From: Verrucomicrobium spinosum DSM 4136 = JCM 18804
Lineage (GTDB): Bacteria > Verrucomicrobiota > Verrucomicrobiia > Verrucomicrobiales > Verrucomicrobiaceae
Assembly (NCBI RefSeq): GCF_000172155.1
Contig: NZ_ABIZ01000001.1
Location: 7,783,105-7,847,104 of the forward strand
Direction: 5' to 3'
Length of the DNA: 64,000 bases
This document shows positions 6,241 through 58,010 of the stretch, piece by piece. The notes below the pieces were generated by a model. It saw nothing but the letters and a program-made list of their open reading frames with translations. It made no database searches and was not told the DNA's origin. Each line of letters opens with the position of its first letter. Position 1 is the stretch's first letter. Position numbers and translations under genes: made by a program.

Positions 6241-7572
6241 CTACCTTCCCACCGGCCCCAGCTCCTGCTTCACCTTCACGGGTTCTGCCGCCGGCTCGGC
6301 CGGTTTCAAGAGCTCCATGACCGCGGGCGTAAGTTCTTTGGCAAAGAGGTCATATCCCTTGGCCGTGAGGTGGATGTTGTCTGCTTGAAAGAGGCCCTCG
6401 AGGAATTTGCCGTCACGGCGGAGGAATTTGACGCCGGGGTTCAGGAAACTGACGTTGTTCCACTCCTCAAGCTGGGCAGCCAGGACGTTGAACTCCGTGG
6501 CCCGCTGGCGGTTGATGTCGGTGAGCTCGGCACCCACGGGCAGCAGCCCCACCACGAGGATCTGGCTGCTGGGAACGCTGCTGCGCAGCTTCTCCACCAC
6601 GGCACGCAGGCCCGCCACCACCTCTTCACTGCTGTTCTGCCCGCTCCAGAGGTTGTTGAGGCCCACCATGAGCACGACGACCTTGGGGGCGGGGTCCTGG
6701 TCTTCCAGAAGTCCGTTTTCCAGGCGCCAGAGGAGATTGCCGGTGGTATCGCCGCCGAGGCCAAAGTTGGCTGACTTCAGCGGGACCAGGATCTTCTGCC
6801 AGGCCTCACGGCCGGTGGTGGTCCAGCCCTGGGTGAGGGAATCGCCCAGGAAGGCCACCTCGAACCCGCCCTCTTCGGCACGACGCACCTGACTCTCATG
6901 AAAGAGCTTCCAGGCCCGGGGGCGATCAGGGAAATAACCCGGCACAGCCGTCACCGGCACCTTCTTCACCTCAGCGGGTGCTCCGGGCGCCTTGGGTTCT
7001 GCGCCCGGCTTCACGACGGCGACCTTGATGCCCTCCGCCTTCAGCTTCACATCATCCAGCCAGGCCTTGCCCTGCCCCTCCACATAGAGCGCGATGGCGA
7101 GCTTGCTGGCATTCTCCGGCACCGTGATCTCCGCCTCCAGTTCCTGCCAGTCATGCGTGCCCTCCAGCGTCTTCACCGGGAAGCAGTCGTTGGTGGTGAA
7201 TCGTTCATCAAAAAATTGGGCCGCGAAGTTCACCTTGCCCATGCCCTCCGTCTTCACCCAGCCGCTCAGCGTGATCTTCGAAGCGGGCTGGATGTTCACC
7301 ATCTGGTGGGCGCAGGCATTGCGATTGTCCGAAAGGGTGCTGCGATCCACACAGAGGCTGGCCTTGCCCGCATGAAATACCGCCGTGTCACGCGTGACAA
7401 TGCAGTCGCCAAATTTGCCCGTCCAGCCAAGCGGCACGCCCTCTCCACCTTCCATGCCTGGATTCTGCAGGCGCAGCTTCGGAGCCTTGTCTTTGTCCTC
7501 CTTCTGCTCCTTTTCCGCCGCACCCAAGGCAAACGGGAAGAGCAAACCCAGAGCAATGGTGCAGAGTTTCAT
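6241..7572 (-). CDS. SGNH/GDSL esterase with N-terminal carbohydrate-binding-like domain
   Basis: Secreted two-domain hydrolase of 443 residues. Residues 1-18 are a signal peptide. Residues about 32-180 form a beta-sandwich of the kind found in CBM4/9-like modules (LQNPGMEGGEGVPLGW at the start, AWLDDVKLKAE at the end). The catalytic SGNH domain begins near residue 235 with the block I motif GDSLT (243-247, nucleophile Ser245). Block II is FGLGGDTTGN, block III is VGLNN, and block V is DNIHLTAKGY with the Asp and His. It probably removes acyl groups (acetyl or similar) from polysaccharides outside the cytoplasm; substrate inferred only. It resembles PAF-acetylhydrolase-like SGNH enzymes. Next to it is a small membrane protein gene and the DUF1501/DUF1800 genes. 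Confidence 0.87.
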   Translation of the reverse strand: MKLCTIALGLLFPFALGAAEKEQKEDKDKAPKLRLQNPGMEGGEGVPLGWTGKFGDCIVTRDTAVFHAGKASLCVDRSTLSDNRNACAHQMVNIQPASKITLSGWVKTEGMGKVNFAAQFFDERFTTNDCFPVKTLEGTHDWQELEAEITVPENASKLAIALYVEGQGKAWLDDVKLKAEGIKVAVVKPGAEPKAPGAPAEVKKVPVTAVPGYFPDRPRAWKLFHESQVRRAEEGGFEVAFLGDSLTQGWTTTGREAWQKILVPLKSANFGLGGDTTGNLLWRLENGLLEDQDPAPKVVVLMVGLNNLWSGQNSSEEVVAGLRAVVEKLRSSVPSSQILVVGLLPVGAELTDINRQRATEFNVLAAQLEEWNNVSFLNPGVKFLRRDGKFLEGLFQADNIHLTAKGYDLFAKELTPAVMELLKPAEPAAEPVKVKQELGPVGR

Positions 7573-7590
7573 GGGGCAGGGCGGGAAACA

Positions 7591-8031
7591 TCATGTAGGC
7601 GACGACGCGGCGCTCGCATCGGATTCGTGGGAATCAGTTGACTGGTTGTCAGATTTTTTTCCACTGTGCAACCAGTTCAGCAGCCAGCCTTCAGCGATGA
7701 CCAGGACGAGCAACCCCGTGAAGCGCTTGTGCAACCAAATCGGCTCACCCAGCTTCATGAGCAGGGCCATGACCAGCGTCCAGCCGCCCACGGCCAGAAT
7801 CACCAGGCCCACAGCCTGCCAAAGCCCCTTTTTCTGCACCTGCCTCTTGGCCCGGGCCGCCAGCAGACCACCCCAGATCAAGAGAACGTAGCCAAGGGCA
7901 AAGGTGATCTTGCCGCCCAGGATCACGGATTTTTCATCCACATCCAGCCCCTTCATCAGCCAGCCAATGTATTGAAACAGCAGCCCAAAGGCGAGGCACT
8001 GGGAAATTTTGAGCTTGTGGGCGTACTCCAT
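7591..8031 (-). CDS. Small integral membrane protein, unknown function
   Basis: About 146 residues with four predicted membrane segments: ISQCLAFGLLFQYIGWLM, ITFALGYVLLIWGGLL, AVGLVILAVGGWTLVMALLM and GLLVLVIAEGWLLNWL. It has a hydrophilic Ser/Asp-rich tail. The ATG at 8031 was chosen because it directly precedes a membrane-protein-like N-terminus. An in-frame TTG at 8070 overlaps the stop of the upstream DUF1501 gene (TTGA) and could allow coupled translation. No known family was recognised. It sits between the DUF1501 gene and the SGNH esterase gene on the same strand. Confidence 0.6.
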   Translation of the reverse strand: MEYAHKLKISQCLAFGLLFQYIGWLMKGLDVDEKSVILGGKITFALGYVLLIWGGLLAARAKRQVQKKGLWQAVGLVILAVGGWTLVMALLMKLGEPIWLHKRFTGLLVLVIAEGWLLNWLHSGKKSDNQSTDSHESDASAASSPT

Positions 8032-8066
8032 GGCGAGTCCCGATACTGGCTCATCTGGAGCAAATC

Positions 8067-50547: not shown

Positions 50548-53202
50548 TCACTCCTCATCACTGACGGCATACGCGGTCGCAGCCTCCAGGCTGAGCGAGC
50601 CGCCCTCCCGCCGGGCGGCATCGACGGCGGGCCCTTGAAAGTCCCCTCCGGCAGCCGTCAGCACAGCTCTCAACGCAGGGTGGTCTGCCGCCTGGGGCAC
50701 CAGACCGCTGCGCAGACGCTGGGCCTCTGCCGCCCCCATGAGACGGGCGGCGCGGGTGTACTTCTTCTCGGCCACGGCCAGCACGGCAAAGGCATCCAGC
50801 GGATACGAGGCCCCCCAGCGGTTCCCCAGCTCAATGCCCACCTGCAGACACTCCCGCAGGTGCTCATGTGCCACCTTGAACTCCCCCAGGGCGGCGGCGT
50901 TCGCTCCCACGGCCCAGGCCATGATGATGGCCTGCCAGGTGTCACCCTCCTCCCGATACATCGCGAGGTTCCGCGCATCCAGATCATAAGCGAGGCGGAA
51001 ATCGCCGGCGGCGGCCGCGAAGACGGCCTGGACATGCTGCACATGGGCCGTGAGCCGACGATCCCCGAGCGGAGCCGCCCAAGCCGCCGCCTCCTCCACG
51101 AGGGCGCTGGCATGGGTCATCTCACCCTGATCAAACGCAAGGTAACCCAGATCCGCCAGAGCCCGGGCGATGCCGGCGGGCAGGCCAAGCTCCCGGTAAA
51201 TGGAGAGGGCCTCCTCCTGATATCGGCGACAGGCAGGGAGGTCATCCGCCACCCAGGCCAGACGCCCGGCCGCAGCCAGGGCTGCGGCCCGCCTCTCATC
51301 CCGCAGCGCGGTGTCGGAATGCGAAAACAGGCGCGCAAAGCTGTCGCCCGTCTCCTTGAACAGACCTCGAACCTCCACATACCGCTGGGTCGCTGCAAGC
51401 ATCTGCAATCCTTTCGGTGCCTGCCCTGGCAGCTCCAGCGCCGCCTCCACCGCAAACCGGATGTTGAACTCCTCCTGCCCCACGGTCTCCAGCCATTCCC
51501 CCTGGCCATGACCACGGATTTTGGGAGCGGCCTGGATGGCGAAGTTTAGGAAATAATCCAGATGGCGGATGCGAAAGGCCTCCGCCTCGCCGGCGTCAGC
51601 CAGCTTCTCATTCGCATAGTCCCAGATGGACTCCAGGATGAAATAACGTGCGCCATGCCGGGGATGCTTCTCCACATAGACCAGGGACTTGTCCACGAGC
51701 TGGGTCAGCAGGTCGATGATCTCAAACTCCTCCACGCCCGCTCCGGAGCAGATGGCCTCGATCGCCTCCAGCGTGCGGCCCCGGGCAAAGACGGAGAGCC
51801 GGCGGAAAAGACGGCGCTCGGGATCGCTGAGGAGATCGTGACTCCAGTCGATGAGCAGTCGCAGCGTCTGCTGGCGGGGCACGGCATTGCGGCTCCCCGT
51901 CGTCAGCAGGTGAAAGCGGTCGTCCAGCCGGTCCACGATCTGCTGCAGGGTGAGCACGCGGATGCGGGAGGCGGCCAGCTCAATGGCGAGCGGAATGCCA
52001 TCCAGCCGCCAGCAGATCTGCGCCACGAGCGGGGCGGTCTCGGCATTCAGATGGAAGGCCGGGCGCACCATGCGGGCCCGTTCGGCAAAGAGGCGCACCG
52101 CCTCATGGCCGCCCAGACGCTCCAGCGCCCCCGGCGCGGTGCTGATCTCCCGCCAGTCGTCAGGGAGGGACATCGGCGGCACAGGCCACGCCGTTTCCCC
52201 CGCGATGCTCATGGCCTCCCGGCTGCTGGCGAGGATGCTGAGGCGGGGGCAGGCGCGAAGCAGCACCTCAGACAATCGGGCACAGGCGGCGACCACGTGC
52301 TCGCAGTTGTCGAGGATCAGCAGCAGATGCCGGTCCCGCAGAAACTGGGTGAGCGTGCTCGTGAGGGGGCGCTCCGCCTCCTGGCGCAGATTCAGCGCCG
52401 CCGCGACGGTCTCCAGCACGAGACTGTCATCATCAATGGTGGCGAACTCCACGAGCCAGACGCCATCCGGGTAGTGGTCCAGCACGTCCGCCGCCACCTG
52501 GAGGGAGAGGCGCGTCTTCCCCGTTCCACCCATCCCGGTGAGCGTAAGCAGGCGGGTGGTGCCCAGCGCGCGCTTCACCTCCGCCATCTCACGCTCGCGC
52601 CCGATGAAAGTGCTGAGCTGGATGGGCAGATTGTTGGCGACGCTCTCCAGCGACCGCAGCCCCCCGAACTCCGAAGGCAGGTCCGCAGCCACGAGCTGGT
52701 ACAGCTGCTCCGGCCGGGCCAGATCGCGCAAGCGATGCTCCCCCAGATGGCGGAGGCTCACGCCCTGCGGGATGTGATCGCGCAGCAGCTCCTCCGTCGG
52801 CAGGGACACCAGCACCTGCCCACCATGGGCAGCAGAGAGAATGCGGGCCGTGCGGTTCAGCGCCTGGCCGAAGTAGTCCCCATCCCGGTGCTCGGCAGCC
52901 CCAGTGTGCAGGGCCATGCGCACGCGCAGTCCCCCCACCTCCCGCCAGTCGGCATCCCGCAGCGCCCGCTGGCACTCCAGCGCCGCCGCCAGGGCCCATT
53001 GCGCCGTGTCGAACGCCACGCAAAAGGCATCGCCGATGGTCTTGAAAACATAGCCGGAGCACGCGGCAAAGATCTCGCGCAGCATCCGGTCGTGCTTGCC
53101 CAGCGCCACCTGCATCGCGTCAGGGTGCTGATCCCACTTCTTCGTGCTGCCCTCAATGTCGCTGAACAAAAAGGTGATGGTGCCGGTAGGCGCTACGGTC
53201 AT
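50548..53202 (-). CDS. Class III nucleotidyl cyclase - NTPase (NB-ARC type) - TPR regulator
   Basis: An 884-residue cytoplasmic regulator. The ATG at 53202 (MTVAPTGTITFLFSDIEGST) was chosen because the cyclase domain begins immediately; the upstream extension to 53334 is not domain-like. The cyclase (1-170) has metal-site Asp15 (FSDIEGST), FKTIGDAFCVAF with the second Asp, and DYFGQALNRTARI for the transition-state residues. Next is an NTPase with P-loop TGMGGTGKTRLS, Walker B LLLILDN and IPLAIELAASR, like LuxR/NB-ARC STAND regulators. The C-terminus is helical TPR-like repeats (EEALSIYRELGLPAGIARAL). Such cyclase-STAND-TPR proteins are signal-transducing; output by cNMP or by oligomerisation is not decided by sequence. 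It has no HTH. Confidence 0.9.
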   Translation of the reverse strand: MTVAPTGTITFLFSDIEGSTKKWDQHPDAMQVALGKHDRMLREIFAACSGYVFKTIGDAFCVAFDTAQWALAAALECQRALRDADWREVGGLRVRMALHTGAAEHRDGDYFGQALNRTARILSAAHGGQVLVSLPTEELLRDHIPQGVSLRHLGEHRLRDLARPEQLYQLVAADLPSEFGGLRSLESVANNLPIQLSTFIGREREMAEVKRALGTTRLLTLTGMGGTGKTRLSLQVAADVLDHYPDGVWLVEFATIDDDSLVLETVAAALNLRQEAERPLTSTLTQFLRDRHLLLILDNCEHVVAACARLSEVLLRACPRLSILASSREAMSIAGETAWPVPPMSLPDDWREISTAPGALERLGGHEAVRLFAERARMVRPAFHLNAETAPLVAQICWRLDGIPLAIELAASRIRVLTLQQIVDRLDDRFHLLTTGSRNAVPRQQTLRLLIDWSHDLLSDPERRLFRRLSVFARGRTLEAIEAICSGAGVEEFEIIDLLTQLVDKSLVYVEKHPRHGARYFILESIWDYANEKLADAGEAEAFRIRHLDYFLNFAIQAAPKIRGHGQGEWLETVGQEEFNIRFAVEAALELPGQAPKGLQMLAATQRYVEVRGLFKETGDSFARLFSHSDTALRDERRAAALAAAGRLAWVADDLPACRRYQEEALSIYRELGLPAGIARALADLGYLAFDQGEMTHASALVEEAAAWAAPLGDRRLTAHVQHVQAVFAAAAGDFRLAYDLDARNLAMYREEGDTWQAIIMAWAVGANAAALGEFKVAHEHLRECLQVGIELGNRWGASYPLDAFAVLAVAEKKYTRAARLMGAAEAQRLRSGLVPQAADHPALRAVLTAAGGDFQGPAVDAARREGGSLSLEAATAYAVSDEE

Positions 53203-53414
53203 GACCGCGCAATGTGGGACAGGCCCCGCGCTTCTCAATGATTCACAGTGAAAAGTTGAGAGTAAAAAGTGAAAAGTGACGGCTCCAGGCACCCTCAGGG
53301 GACTCTCGCCGCTGGCCGCCGCCTCCCGTGCCATGCCTGAGCTCCGGTCTTTCGTCTTTTGGCTTCAAGCCTTCTGTCTCCCGCGAAGCGCCACTGGGCA
53401 GAAACTCGAAGATC

Positions 53415-54149: not shown

Positions 54150-54614
54150 ATGCCTCAAAAACTAGCAGGGATGACCATTGGAGGAAATTCCGTCAAACTT
54201 GTTGTCTTGGTTTTGGAAGATGACAAGTCATTTACTTTCGAAGATCAGACAACATTCAATCTCCAAGCCGGCTCTCGTCCTAGTGCGTACTGCTACATTA
54301 GGGATCAAATCAACGAATATCTCAGACACCGACACGTCAGCTGCGTGGGTGTAAAAGAAAGCGCCCTCAGCAGATCGGGCATGCGAATGTCGCACCTTTA
54401 CTCAGCCGAATTGAGGGGGGTCGCGCTCGCCGCCGCCGCCGCCGCCTGCGAAAATGTTAAGCTGACCAACAAGTCTCAGGTTAGTAAGAACTTTGGCGAA
54501 AGAAAGGTGGACGAGTATCTTGGTGATGACAAATGGTGGCAGGAGCGATCACTCGATTCCATCCAGAAGGGAATGCGTGAAGCCGCCTTTGCTGTCATCA
54601 ACCATTTCGCATAA
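54150..54614 (+). CDS. Small RuvC/DUF3010-like protein coupled to a Ser/Thr kinase
   Basis: A 154-residue protein with no signal peptide. Its strand-helix order resembles the RNase H/RuvC fold, and especially DUF3010: a first strand AGMTIGGNSVKLVVL, a helix-strand unit INEYLRHRHVSCVGVKES with Glu70, a helix AELRGVALAAAAAACENVKL, NKSQVSKNFG, and a final helix MREAAFAVINHF. In RuvC enzymes the first strand carries a catalytic Asp; here that position is Gly-Asn, so nuclease activity is doubtful. The similarity is from memory of fold patterns and needs profile search. The start at 54150 keeps the whole first strand. Its TAA overlaps the kinase ATG by one base (TAATG), indicating coupled translation. 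Lower GC than the flanks suggests acquisition. Confidence 0.7.
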   Translation: MPQKLAGMTIGGNSVKLVVLVLEDDKSFTFEDQTTFNLQAGSRPSAYCYIRDQINEYLRHRHVSCVGVKESALSRSGMRMSHLYSAELRGVALAAAAAACENVKLTNKSQVSKNFGERKVDEYLGDDKWWQERSLDSIQKGMREAAFAVINHFA

Positions 54615-55657
54615 TGCCATTCGAGAGCGACCTCCAGCTGGGACCTATTCTGGGATCAGGACACTTTGGCGAAGTGCTTGAGGGCAATGAACCTGCTCAT
54701 GGACTAGTGGCAGTAAAAAGGCTAAAGCAAGCCGCGGGTGAAACACAGGCCGCATTCATTGCCCGCAACTCACACCTTCTTCAGGAAGCCCAGCATTTGA
54801 GTGCCGCCGCCCACACAAATGTAGTTAAAGTTCACTCGGTTGTCACAGAGACCAGTTCAGGGGCGGCTCATATGGTAGTGGAATTTTGCGAAGGTGGCTC
54901 GTTGCTTACGGAATATGAGGCGGGCCCTTTGAGTGTGATGCGCACCCGCACAATTATGACTCAAGTGGCCGCAGGTTTAGAGCATATTCATAATTTGGGG
55001 TTGTTGCATAGGGATATAAAGCCTGCAAACATTCTTTGCAAAGGAAGTGCTTGTAAACTAGGGGACTTTGGACTTGTGACAGATGACCTCGTGCTAGGAT
55101 ATGCGAGCGCGGCAGGATATTTGGACCATCTTGCACCTGAAGTTTATCATGATGGCGTGACTAGCGTCCGCACGGACGTATGGGCAATGGGAATGACAAC
55201 TTATAGGCTGCTCCATGGCCACGATTTTTATCAGCGGCATTTTGGTGCCGCCAATCCAGCGGCCCTCATTCCACTTGGAAAATTTGCAGGGTCACTGCCT
55301 TGGTTGCCGCATATCTCTAAAGAGTGGCGGAAATTTGTCTGCGATTGTTTGCGAGATAATCCAGCAACAAGAATTCAATCCGCTCATGATTTTCAACAAA
55401 AGTTGGCTCGGATCCGAGTGTCTCGAGATTGGCGATGCACGCTTGCTACCGATTCCACCCAGTGGGAGTGCGATGAGAAAAATGGTCGGACCGCAATTGT
55501 GGAGCTGACAGTGCACAGCGCGAATGAACACGAGTGGACTGCGCATCGGGAAGGCGCTGGAATCCTCCGCAGGAAAATAAGTGGTGTAGGATCGAACGGA
55601 CGACTCGCTCCCAAAGATGCCCACCAACAGCTATCGGCCTTTTTTGCCCAGTTTTGA
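54614..55657 (+). CDS. Ser/Thr protein kinase of the coupled accessory pair
   Basis: A 347-residue cytoplasmic Hanks-type kinase with no membrane span. Catalytic features look intact: glycine loop GSGHFGEV (14-21), Lys35 in VAVKRL, HRDIKPANIL (132-141), DFG (151-153), APE (174-176), and DVWAMGMTTYRLL. After the kinase core (to about 270) is an 80-residue unknown C-terminal domain (RDWRCTLATDSTQWECDEKNG, then EHEWTAHREGAGILRRKI), which may bind a target. The kinase is translated right after the RuvC-like gene. Codon and base use differ from the high-GC neighbours. This may be a stress- or phage-response pair; no direct evidence. Confidence 0.85.
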   Translation: MPFESDLQLGPILGSGHFGEVLEGNEPAHGLVAVKRLKQAAGETQAAFIARNSHLLQEAQHLSAAAHTNVVKVHSVVTETSSGAAHMVVEFCEGGSLLTEYEAGPLSVMRTRTIMTQVAAGLEHIHNLGLLHRDIKPANILCKGSACKLGDFGLVTDDLVLGYASAAGYLDHLAPEVYHDGVTSVRTDVWAMGMTTYRLLHGHDFYQRHFGAANPAALIPLGKFAGSLPWLPHISKEWRKFVCDCLRDNPATRIQSAHDFQQKLARIRVSRDWRCTLATDSTQWECDEKNGRTAIVELTVHSANEHEWTAHREGAGILRRKISGVGSNGRLAPKDAHQQLSAFFAQF

Positions 55658-55843
55658 GATTTGCCTACCTGTAGGAATTAGATATTTGGCGTCGAGAATT
55701 GATGCACCCTTGCTCTCAAAATAAGCTTTTGCACATTTCACACGTTGACAACTGCAATCTGAGCAATGGGGAGAGCGCCTCATTGCGGATGAAATGTGCA
55801 TATTGCCACAGTATTCACAATGGCCAGAATTGATACGCATCAT
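55631..55843 (-). CDS. Possible small Cys-rich protein overlapping kinase 3' end
   Basis: A 70-codon frame, convergent with the kinase and overlapping its 3' end by 27 bp. It encodes two Cys clusters (HCEYCGNMHIS and HCSDCSCQRVKC), which look like a zinc finger, and a basic C-terminus (ISKLGKKGR). The upstream region is AT-rich as expected for a promoter (ATAAAATTATTAAATTGC near 55857). The Cys/His spacing is not random-looking, but short overlapping ORFs are often spurious. It could be a third member of the accessory unit. Confidence 0.4.
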   Translation of the reverse strand: MMRINSGHCEYCGNMHISSAMRRSPHCSDCSCQRVKCAKAYFESKGASILDAKYLIPTGRQISKLGKKGR

Positions 55844-55984: not shown

Positions 55985-56060
55985 TTTCTATGGGGCAGTT
56001 GACGAAGGTAACCACCGCGCGTGGCGAAACCTTTCACAACTGCAAGGCACTGGCCACTTC
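55985..56060 (+). pseudogene. Fragment copy of the secreted-protein gene at 56925
   Basis: A short stretch encoding QLTKVTTARGETFHNCK closely matches QLLKVTTSRGETFHNCK encoded near 57009-57060, with the same bases at most positions (for example the run CCTTTCACAACTGCAAGG). The copy is cut on both sides and has no signal peptide or downstream domain. It is separated from the intact copy by the truncated transposase, which suggests a duplication or insertion event split or copied this region. Confidence 0.7.
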
Positions 56061-56321: not shown

Positions 56322-56657
56322 TTATGCTGCCTCCACGCTGGTAGTTATACTGCGTGTCAGGAGGCTTTTGAGTTCGGCTAGGTAGTCGGTGGCCATGCGT
56401 TGGAGACATTCGTCAACGGCGAGGCGAAAGTCCCGGAACGTTGGGTACTGCCGGTTGCACAAGCACTTCTTCTTGGTGAGCTTCCAAAGCCTTTCGATGA
56501 GGTTGAGATTGGGGCTGTAGGCTGGCAGGTAGAGCAGTTCAATGTCTTGGGCCGCCGCATGGGCGGCCACTTCCTGGCAACGCTGGTAGCGGGCGTTGTC
56601 CAGGATCAAGGTGATGGGCGCAGTGGGATGAGCCCTGCGTATCTGCCAGTTCCACCA
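56322..56657 (-). pseudogene. Truncated IS630-type transposase
   Basis: C-terminal remnant of an IS630/Tc1-mariner-like DDE transposase. Visible parts are HPTAPITLILDNARYQRC (the second catalytic Asp region), LLYLPAYSPNLNLIERLWKL (the third acidic residue region) and KKKCLCNRQYPTFRDF. The reading frame is stopped upstream at 56658-56660 (TGA), so the N-terminal DNA-binding domain and first catalytic Asp are gone. No terminal inverted repeats were found. It marks past mobile-element activity at the accessory island. Confidence 0.8.
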
Positions 56658-56924: not shown

Positions 56925-57629
56925 ATGAAACCCTCCCCCCTGGGCCTCATCTTTGGTGCACTGTGCACCATTGCACCTTTTGCTGTGGCCGCAGACGATT
57001 TTGCGGTGCAGTTGCTCAAGGTGACCACCTCGCGTGGCGAGACCTTTCACAACTGCAAGGTGTTGAACTTCACTCCGGATACGGTCACCCTCATGCATGA
57101 CGATGGGGTGAAGAAGGTGAAGATGCACCAGCTTCCCGAGGCGCTGCAACAGCGGTTCCACTACGATGAGGACCGGGCCACGGCTTTTGCCGAGGCGGAG
57201 CGGGCGCAGCGGAAGGAACAAGAGGAGCAGGCCCGGAAGCAGGAGGCTGAGGAGGCACGCCAGGCGCAGATTGCGGCGGCTGACCACCTGTCCCGGATGC
57301 CGGTCTATCCGGATCAATCGTCCAGCGTCGCGGGTCTGGAGCGGCAGGTCCTGGCGGCGGCCGGATACAGCAGCGGCTACTACGTCCCCAACTACAGTGA
57401 CTACAGCAGCCGGTACTACGCCCGGCGCAGCGCCTACCGGGCGTCTTCGTACTACTATTCCTCGGTGCGGCGGCCGGTGGTGATCTACTACACCGCACCA
57501 AGCTGCTACGCTTATTCGAGCTCCATCATCAGCCCCTGCCGGTCCCAGGCCGCGGGGCGTTCGGCGTCGGCGATGCGAACCTCACGCCCGCGGACATCCG
57601 TGCAGCGCTGGGTGAGCCGGCCACGGTAG
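56925..57629 (+). CDS. Secreted Tyr/Ser-rich protein, probable frameshift at 3' end
   Basis: A 234-residue exported protein. The signal peptide MKPSPLGLIFGALCTIAPFA is followed by a small domain (VQLLKVTTSRGETFHNCKVL), a coiled coil (AEAERAQRKEQEEQARKQEAE) and a Tyr/Ser/Arg-rich region (YYVPNYSDYSSRYYARR). In the current frame the last about 30 residues are Arg/Ser-rich nonsense. In the frame with GCG at 57557 the same DNA reads AFGVGDANLTPADIRAALGEP, a SmpA/OmlA-like ending that looks genuine. A one- or two-base indel between about 57515 and 57545 would join the two parts. The gene may therefore be a pseudogene, or the sequence has an error there. The 380 bp to 58010 hold nothing else recognisable. 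Confidence 0.6.
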   Translation: MKPSPLGLIFGALCTIAPFAVAADDFAVQLLKVTTSRGETFHNCKVLNFTPDTVTLMHDDGVKKVKMHQLPEALQQRFHYDEDRATAFAEAERAQRKEQEEQARKQEAEEARQAQIAAADHLSRMPVYPDQSSSVAGLERQVLAAAGYSSGYYVPNYSDYSSRYYARRSAYRASSYYYSSVRRPVVIYYTAPSCYAYSSSIISPCRSQAAGRSASAMRTSRPRTSVQRWVSRPR

Positions 57630-58010
57630 AGCGCAGACACAGACGGGAAGCGGCCCCATGCCAGTCAAGAGGCAGATGGGCTGGACTGGCGATAAAAGAG
57701 AAAACAGCCCATTTCCGCGAACCTTCATGATCAAACTGGCTCCTGATGCCAAAGCGCACCTTCCAGTGACGCATCGGCACGAGCCCGGCGGCTATGAATC
57801 CGGGCTCTGGATGTCCCCAACGGCCTGAAAGACGCCTCCCTGATCATGGCCCGGCCCCTTCTGGGGATGCTCGTGAAGCTGAAGCCCCCGGGATTGCGAC
57901 TTAAAACACTCGCCTGAGACTTCTGCCTGCGCCAGAATGGATGCCCTGACTTCCACTCTGTGATGCTCCCGAGTCCATGCGACACCCATCCAGCGGGAGG
58001 CAGCCGGGAA

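Follow-up and report, generated by a model that had tools for sequence, protein, structure and literature searches.

The gene pair and its surroundings

The window, which is the whole 64,000-nucleotide stretch of Verrucomicrobium spinosum DNA that was analyzed and comes from an 8.2 Mb genome in a single contig, carries two plus-strand genes, 54150-54614 and 54614-55657, that share one base (TAATG). The GC content was 0.49-0.53 over the gene pair and 0.63-0.70 in the flanks. The original prediction had described an overlapping pair of this kind, lower in GC than its flanks and close to a truncated transposase, and all of this was found: both open reading frames are present, and a C-terminal fragment of an IS630-type (DDE_3) transposase lies nearby as a mark of past mobility. 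The prediction had also counted two genes in the system. The pair itself was confirmed, but the module has three genes, because a convergent gene for a four-cysteine protein had been overlooked. The features of the locus are as follows.

54150-54614, plus strand: RuvC-fold, DUF3010-related protein of 154 amino acids, a probable pseudo-nuclease and predicted sensor or regulator (AlphaFold2 model, VIA-align, replaced acids, DUF3010 profile)
54614-55657, plus strand: Hanks-type Ser/Thr protein kinase of 347 amino acids with intact motifs, its start overlapping the upstream stop (PF00069, AlphaFold2 model, PknB match)
55430-55654, plus strand: kinase C-terminal domain, roughly residues 273-347, with no family assigned (secondary structure, pLDDT, alignment)
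55631-55843, minus strand: zinc-ribbon-like protein (CxxC...CxxC) of 70 amino acids, the third module gene, running convergently toward the kinase gene (four invariant cysteines, adjacency in all loci examined)
56322-56609, minus strand: truncated IS630-type transposase remnant of 95 amino acids, outside the module (PF13358 DDE_3, model positions 83-145 of 146 only)

The 3' end of the third gene overlaps the 3' end of the kinase gene by 27 nt. A short gene on the opposite strand, encoding about 75 amino acids, lies directly past the kinase at every paired locus examined, and its four cysteines are invariant across 12 loci. The third-gene protein matched no Pfam or NCBIfam family.

Several other observations were made around the module. 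A direct repeat (88% over 56 nt) was present at window positions 55992-56047 and 57005-57060: the gene at 56925-57629 has its 5' part partially copied next to the module and the transposase fragment, which suggests a duplication linked to insertion. Synteny with two genomes of the same genus breaks abruptly at about window position 57683, and the inspected stretch to the left of this point was not found beside it in either of them. Upstream of the module, the minus strand at 50548-53334 encodes a 928-amino-acid protein with guanylate cyclase and NB-ARC/STAND-like ATPase domains. In the part of the neighborhood of the window copy that was examined, no known defense gene was found.

The small protein and its kinase partner

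The small protein was searched against family and structure databases by sequence. No Pfam family matched the window protein at an E-value of 1, neither RuvC (PF02075) nor DUF3010 (PF11215), and the DUF3010 match was absent in all 12 paired members scanned. NCBIfam gave no significant family, and in the PDB both phmmer and a profile search returned insignificant matches only. The matches to Csx1 in PADLOC and penta_Alr5209 in NCBIfam were weak and insignificant and were rejected.

The structure of the small protein was modeled with AlphaFold2 from 18 sequences, and the model (pLDDT 87.2) had its strands and helices in the order of RuvC. The best 12 Foldseek matches of the model were all RuvC structures (E-value 3.2e-9). 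VIA-align placed 149 residues on the Pseudomonas RuvC with a Z score of 17.3 and an rmsd of 2.7, and Z was at least 15.5 for the eight top bacterial RuvC entries; the groups that followed, chloroplast MOC1 and TEFM, reached about 12. The profile of the small protein was aligned with that of genuine DUF3010 proteins using hhalign, which gave a score of 37.3 over 134 columns, while the maximum of 40 column shuffles was 20.9. Given the AlphaFold2 model, the Foldseek and VIA-align matches and the DUF3010 profile score, the small protein as modeled is a RuvC-fold protein related to DUF3010. It thus does match the RuvC/RNase H-like fold, and the RuvC/DUF3010-like assignment in the original prediction was borne out in fold and in profile kinship, although the protein falls below the Pfam threshold for DUF3010.

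Three unpaired relatives of the small protein (L002, L003, and L004; Lentisphaera-type), with 27-30% identity, were obtained from the 388 genomes of the phylum searched. There was no kinase beside any of them, which indicates that the fold of the small protein can function without the kinase. The unpaired relative L003 passed the Pfam threshold for RuvC (27.1 against 22.2 bits), and another touched DUF3010 weakly. The genomes of all three also encode a genuine DUF3010 gene. A further match, L005 (E-value 0.005, four in-frame stops), was dropped as chance. Compared with the RuvC resolvase, the small protein has the full-length fold in common, but it is without the catalytic acids and is partnered with a kinase, and the host has a normal RuvC of its own (L085). 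With DUF3010 it shares homology over the whole length of the profile; however, its C-terminal part is longer, with a conserved RKVDEYLKDD block, and it is paired with a kinase.

We aligned the 18 sequences, 15 kinase-paired and three unpaired, with the host RuvC and read the active-site positions in E. coli RuvC numbering from the global alignment, since a local alignment misplaces the last helix. In all 18 sequences Asp7 was replaced by Thr, Val, Ala, or Arg, Glu66 by an invariant Lys, and Asp138 by Gly, Ser, or Thr. The Asp141 position kept an acid, Glu in the sequences paired with a kinase and Asp in the three unpaired ones. The Lys at the Glu66 position was also present in most of the genuine DUF3010 proteins aligned. 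Because three of the four RuvC catalytic acids are missing in every sequence, the small protein is very probably a pseudo-nuclease. The absence of the first-strand acid had been predicted and was confirmed, but the loss is larger than the single residue predicted. Nine residues (R43, K69, S71, E87, R89, G116, K119, D127, and R143) were invariant in all 18 sequences. All 15 paired forms have K108, R118, and D121, none of the unpaired forms does, and S112 is kept in every paired form but one (Cys). Since these four residues are confined to the paired forms, they are candidates for contact with the kinase.

The kinase carries a Pkinase domain (PF00069, 150 bits), in which Lys35 (VAVK), Glu58, HRD, Asn139, and DFG were invariant in 15 kinase sequences, so that the full set of catalytic motifs ascribed to it at the outset is present. 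The pLDDT of its AlphaFold2 model was 86, and the closest structure was PknB (Z 27.5); this whole-kinase structure search covered mainly residues 1-271. Five strands and one helix make up a separate domain at residues of about 273-347, which was modeled with high confidence and is kept in all members with the pattern W..WE..R..VEW..W.AWSE. The original prediction had called the C-terminal domain unknown, and it indeed showed no significant sequence match in Pfam or the PDB. The PD-T4-6 models matched kinase residues of about 8-300, a range over which generic kinase similarity is inseparable from membership, and the kinase scored 105 bits against the NCBIfam equivalog MADS Mad6, for which the cutoff is 460.

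Distribution of the module and its neighborhoods

The occurrence of the module was surveyed in 84,980 species genomes, with the small-protein profile as the only query. The survey returned 13 loci, and the same kinase lay directly downstream in 12 of them, the 13th being an unpaired Lentisphaera gene. It had been predicted that the two genes would be found together in other genomes, and this was the case. The 12 paired loci were from Pseudomonas, Derxia, Roseateles, Paucibacter, Janthinobacterium, a Proteobacteria MAG, Rhizobium, another member of the Rhizobiales, and Anaeromyxobacter, and their kinases were 32-47% identical to that of the window. Three further pairs came from three more Pseudomonadaceae genomes, which brought the homologous pairs in the same order to 15 loci besides the window. 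The overlap between the stop of the small gene and the start of the kinase gene was examined in 15 pairs (that of the window and 14 others) and was always present, at 1, 4, or 8 nt; dN/dS was 0-0.14 where it could be computed, indicating purifying selection. The recurrence of homologous pairs with the same order, the overlap and purifying selection argues that the pairing is more than chance. The distances of the small protein and of the kinase were correlated (0.90), as expected of a unit inherited together.

The module spans Verrucomicrobiota, Pseudomonadota, and Myxococcota. It was present in five of 348 Pseudomonadaceae, in two of 401 genomes from the family of the Roseateles genome, and in one of 388 genomes of the phylum of the window. 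The small protein was absent from the three other genomes of the same genus, and from all 95 other genomes searched in the same genus, family, and order. A sporadic, patchy distribution of this kind is typical of mobile accessory genes. The small protein was found on one plasmid among 72,556, and the Sinorhizobium meliloti conjugative plasmid pHRB800 (L052) carries the module; no relatives were found in phages, viral contigs, or E. coli. The family was opened only by a profile that includes the three distant Lentisphaera-type relatives, and single-sequence scans of viral contigs, plasmids, phages, and genome contigs with the small protein gave no matches.

We analyzed neighborhoods of up to 19.5 kb around 14 module loci. 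Known anti-phage genes lay within 10 kb in eight of these 14, compared with at most one of ten control neighborhoods (116 proteins) taken from the same genomes, an enrichment near defense genes of the kind that had been anticipated. The genes found were type I restriction-modification (L062 and L064), a class I-C reverse transcriptase of DRT type (L064), GapS6b with an LmuA-like gene (L066), an anti-phage dCTP deaminase (L067 and L069), LmuB (L072), and a ShosA-like DprA with a more weakly ShosT-like PRTase and a HAD gene (L070 and L071). L067 also has an integrase-type transposase. The PADLOC matches below 1e-30 in the control belonged to helicase-type families only (DpdE, ZorD, DrmD, and mad3), with one member each, and probably represent one SNF2-type helicase. 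The one-sided Fisher test gave P = 0.024, or P = 0.026 after the related contexts L059/L060 and L067/L069 were merged. The enrichment is suggestive and not strong, because the control was small and the proteins scanned on the module side had been chosen by hand.

At all three Rhizobiales loci (L018, which is L070; L021, which is L071; and L052), a ShosTA-like DprA-PRTase pair and a HAD gene lay directly upstream in divergent orientation, one of the three being on a conjugative plasmid. In this cassette the DprA was a strong ShosA match and the PRTase only weakly ShosT-like. The pair of DprA and PRTase has been validated experimentally as protecting against T7 and lambda (PMC9122126). The cassette may be an enlarged form of ShosTA linked to the kinase module, but ShosTA is a neighbor of the module and not a homologue, and it is absent beside the window copy and the other loci.

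Proposed role of the module

Because the module recurs in very different bacteria, often beside anti-virus genes, it is probably an undescribed defense switch. We hold it to be somewhat probable that it is a mobile module of anti-phage or toxin-antitoxin-like type, directed against phages or other mobile DNA, in which the dead RuvC-fold protein acts as a nucleic-acid sensor that controls the kinase. In the scheme that we infer, the small protein would be made in step with the kinase, form a complex with it and either hold it in check or activate it, probably through K108, S112, R118, and D121 together with the C-terminal domain of the kinase. The small protein would bind an unusual nucleic-acid structure; judging from its fold, one would naturally guess at branched or recombining DNA. 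On this trigger the kinase, as the effector, would phosphorylate host or phage proteins, so that growth or phage replication stops, as with Stk2. The convergent four-cysteine protein is probably a regulator or an antitoxin. In a more specific version, branched or recombining DNA would be read by the pseudo-resolvase, which would itself gate a eukaryotic-type kinase directly, and the zinc-ribbon protein would be a third component. This would amount to a new class of immune switch and is conceivable but doubtful. If true, it would couple the sensing of nucleic-acid structure to protein phosphorylation.

Anti-phage kinases are known, and for most of them we know of no account of how infection is sensed. 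A kinase gene overlapping the gene of a dead RuvC protein offers a concrete candidate for such a sensor, and a role of this kind would give a function to the DUF3010-like branch of RuvC proteins. No member of the module was annotated by PADLOC or NCBIfam as defense beyond the generic kinase domain, no PADLOC 2.0 or NCBIfam model names the combination, and a full-text literature search outside most subscription papers and bioRxiv returned no description of the combination. As a candidate, the module belongs to a known kind, kinase-based defense, with unusual parts.

The module was compared with known kinase systems. To our knowledge, Stk2, 933W Stk, and PD-T4-6 act without a RuvC-fold partner. 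They resemble the module in having a Hanks-type kinase in a mobile or defense context, but the module kinase has its own C-terminal domain and stands in a conserved three-gene arrangement. Among anti-phage kinases, Stk2 and one encoded by a prophage are cited in PMC9122126. The DS-6 system consists of a HipA-like kinase and a DUF3037/DUF1829 protein predicted to bind DNA, and its defense requires kinase activity (PMC13092281). It is like the module in being a two-gene kinase system with a predicted DNA-binding partner, but its kinase is of HipA type rather than Hanks type and the partners are unrelated.

The main rival to defense is a pure toxin-antitoxin role in the manner of HipA, in which the kinase would be a growth-arresting toxin, the small or the zinc-ribbon protein its antitoxin, and the module would be kept mainly by addiction, with phage defense secondary. 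The small upstream gene with its overlapping start follows the usual antitoxin-first order, and the module has a mobile, sporadic distribution that includes a conjugative plasmid. DS-6, which combines a HipA-like kinase and a DNA-binding partner, has been described as toxin-antitoxin-like defense (PMC13092281). However, the small protein is well conserved and folded as a RuvC domain, without the disordered tail of an antitoxin, and the reading overlaps with the defense reading, the two being inseparable at the sequence level; as a separate explanation we consider it unlikely. Less probable again is a host regulatory kinase module for signaling or control of DNA repair that lies in islands by chance, with the small protein as substrate or scaffold. 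The genome of the window has 29 Pkinase-domain matches, so kinase signaling is common in this lineage, and solo relatives of the small protein exist, but none of the 95 related genomes has the small protein, and the neighborhoods are variable islands rich in defense and transposition genes. A small protein that has kept nuclease activity and is regulated by the kinase is very improbable. The RuvC fold match is strong, and a rearranged site might conceivably be built from the invariant E87 and D127 together with the position-144 acid, but D7, E66, and D138 are replaced throughout, E66 by a Lys shared with most DUF3010 proteins aligned.

Two observations concern individual copies of the module. 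In pHRB800, an IS5-type element (L052, about 7221-8054) interrupts or adjoins the end of the small gene, and this copy is therefore probably broken. The copies at L072 and L062 adjoin gyrB in a dnaA-dnaN-gyrB-like region, in which the genes were named by eye, and possibly mark an insertion hotspot near the replication origin.
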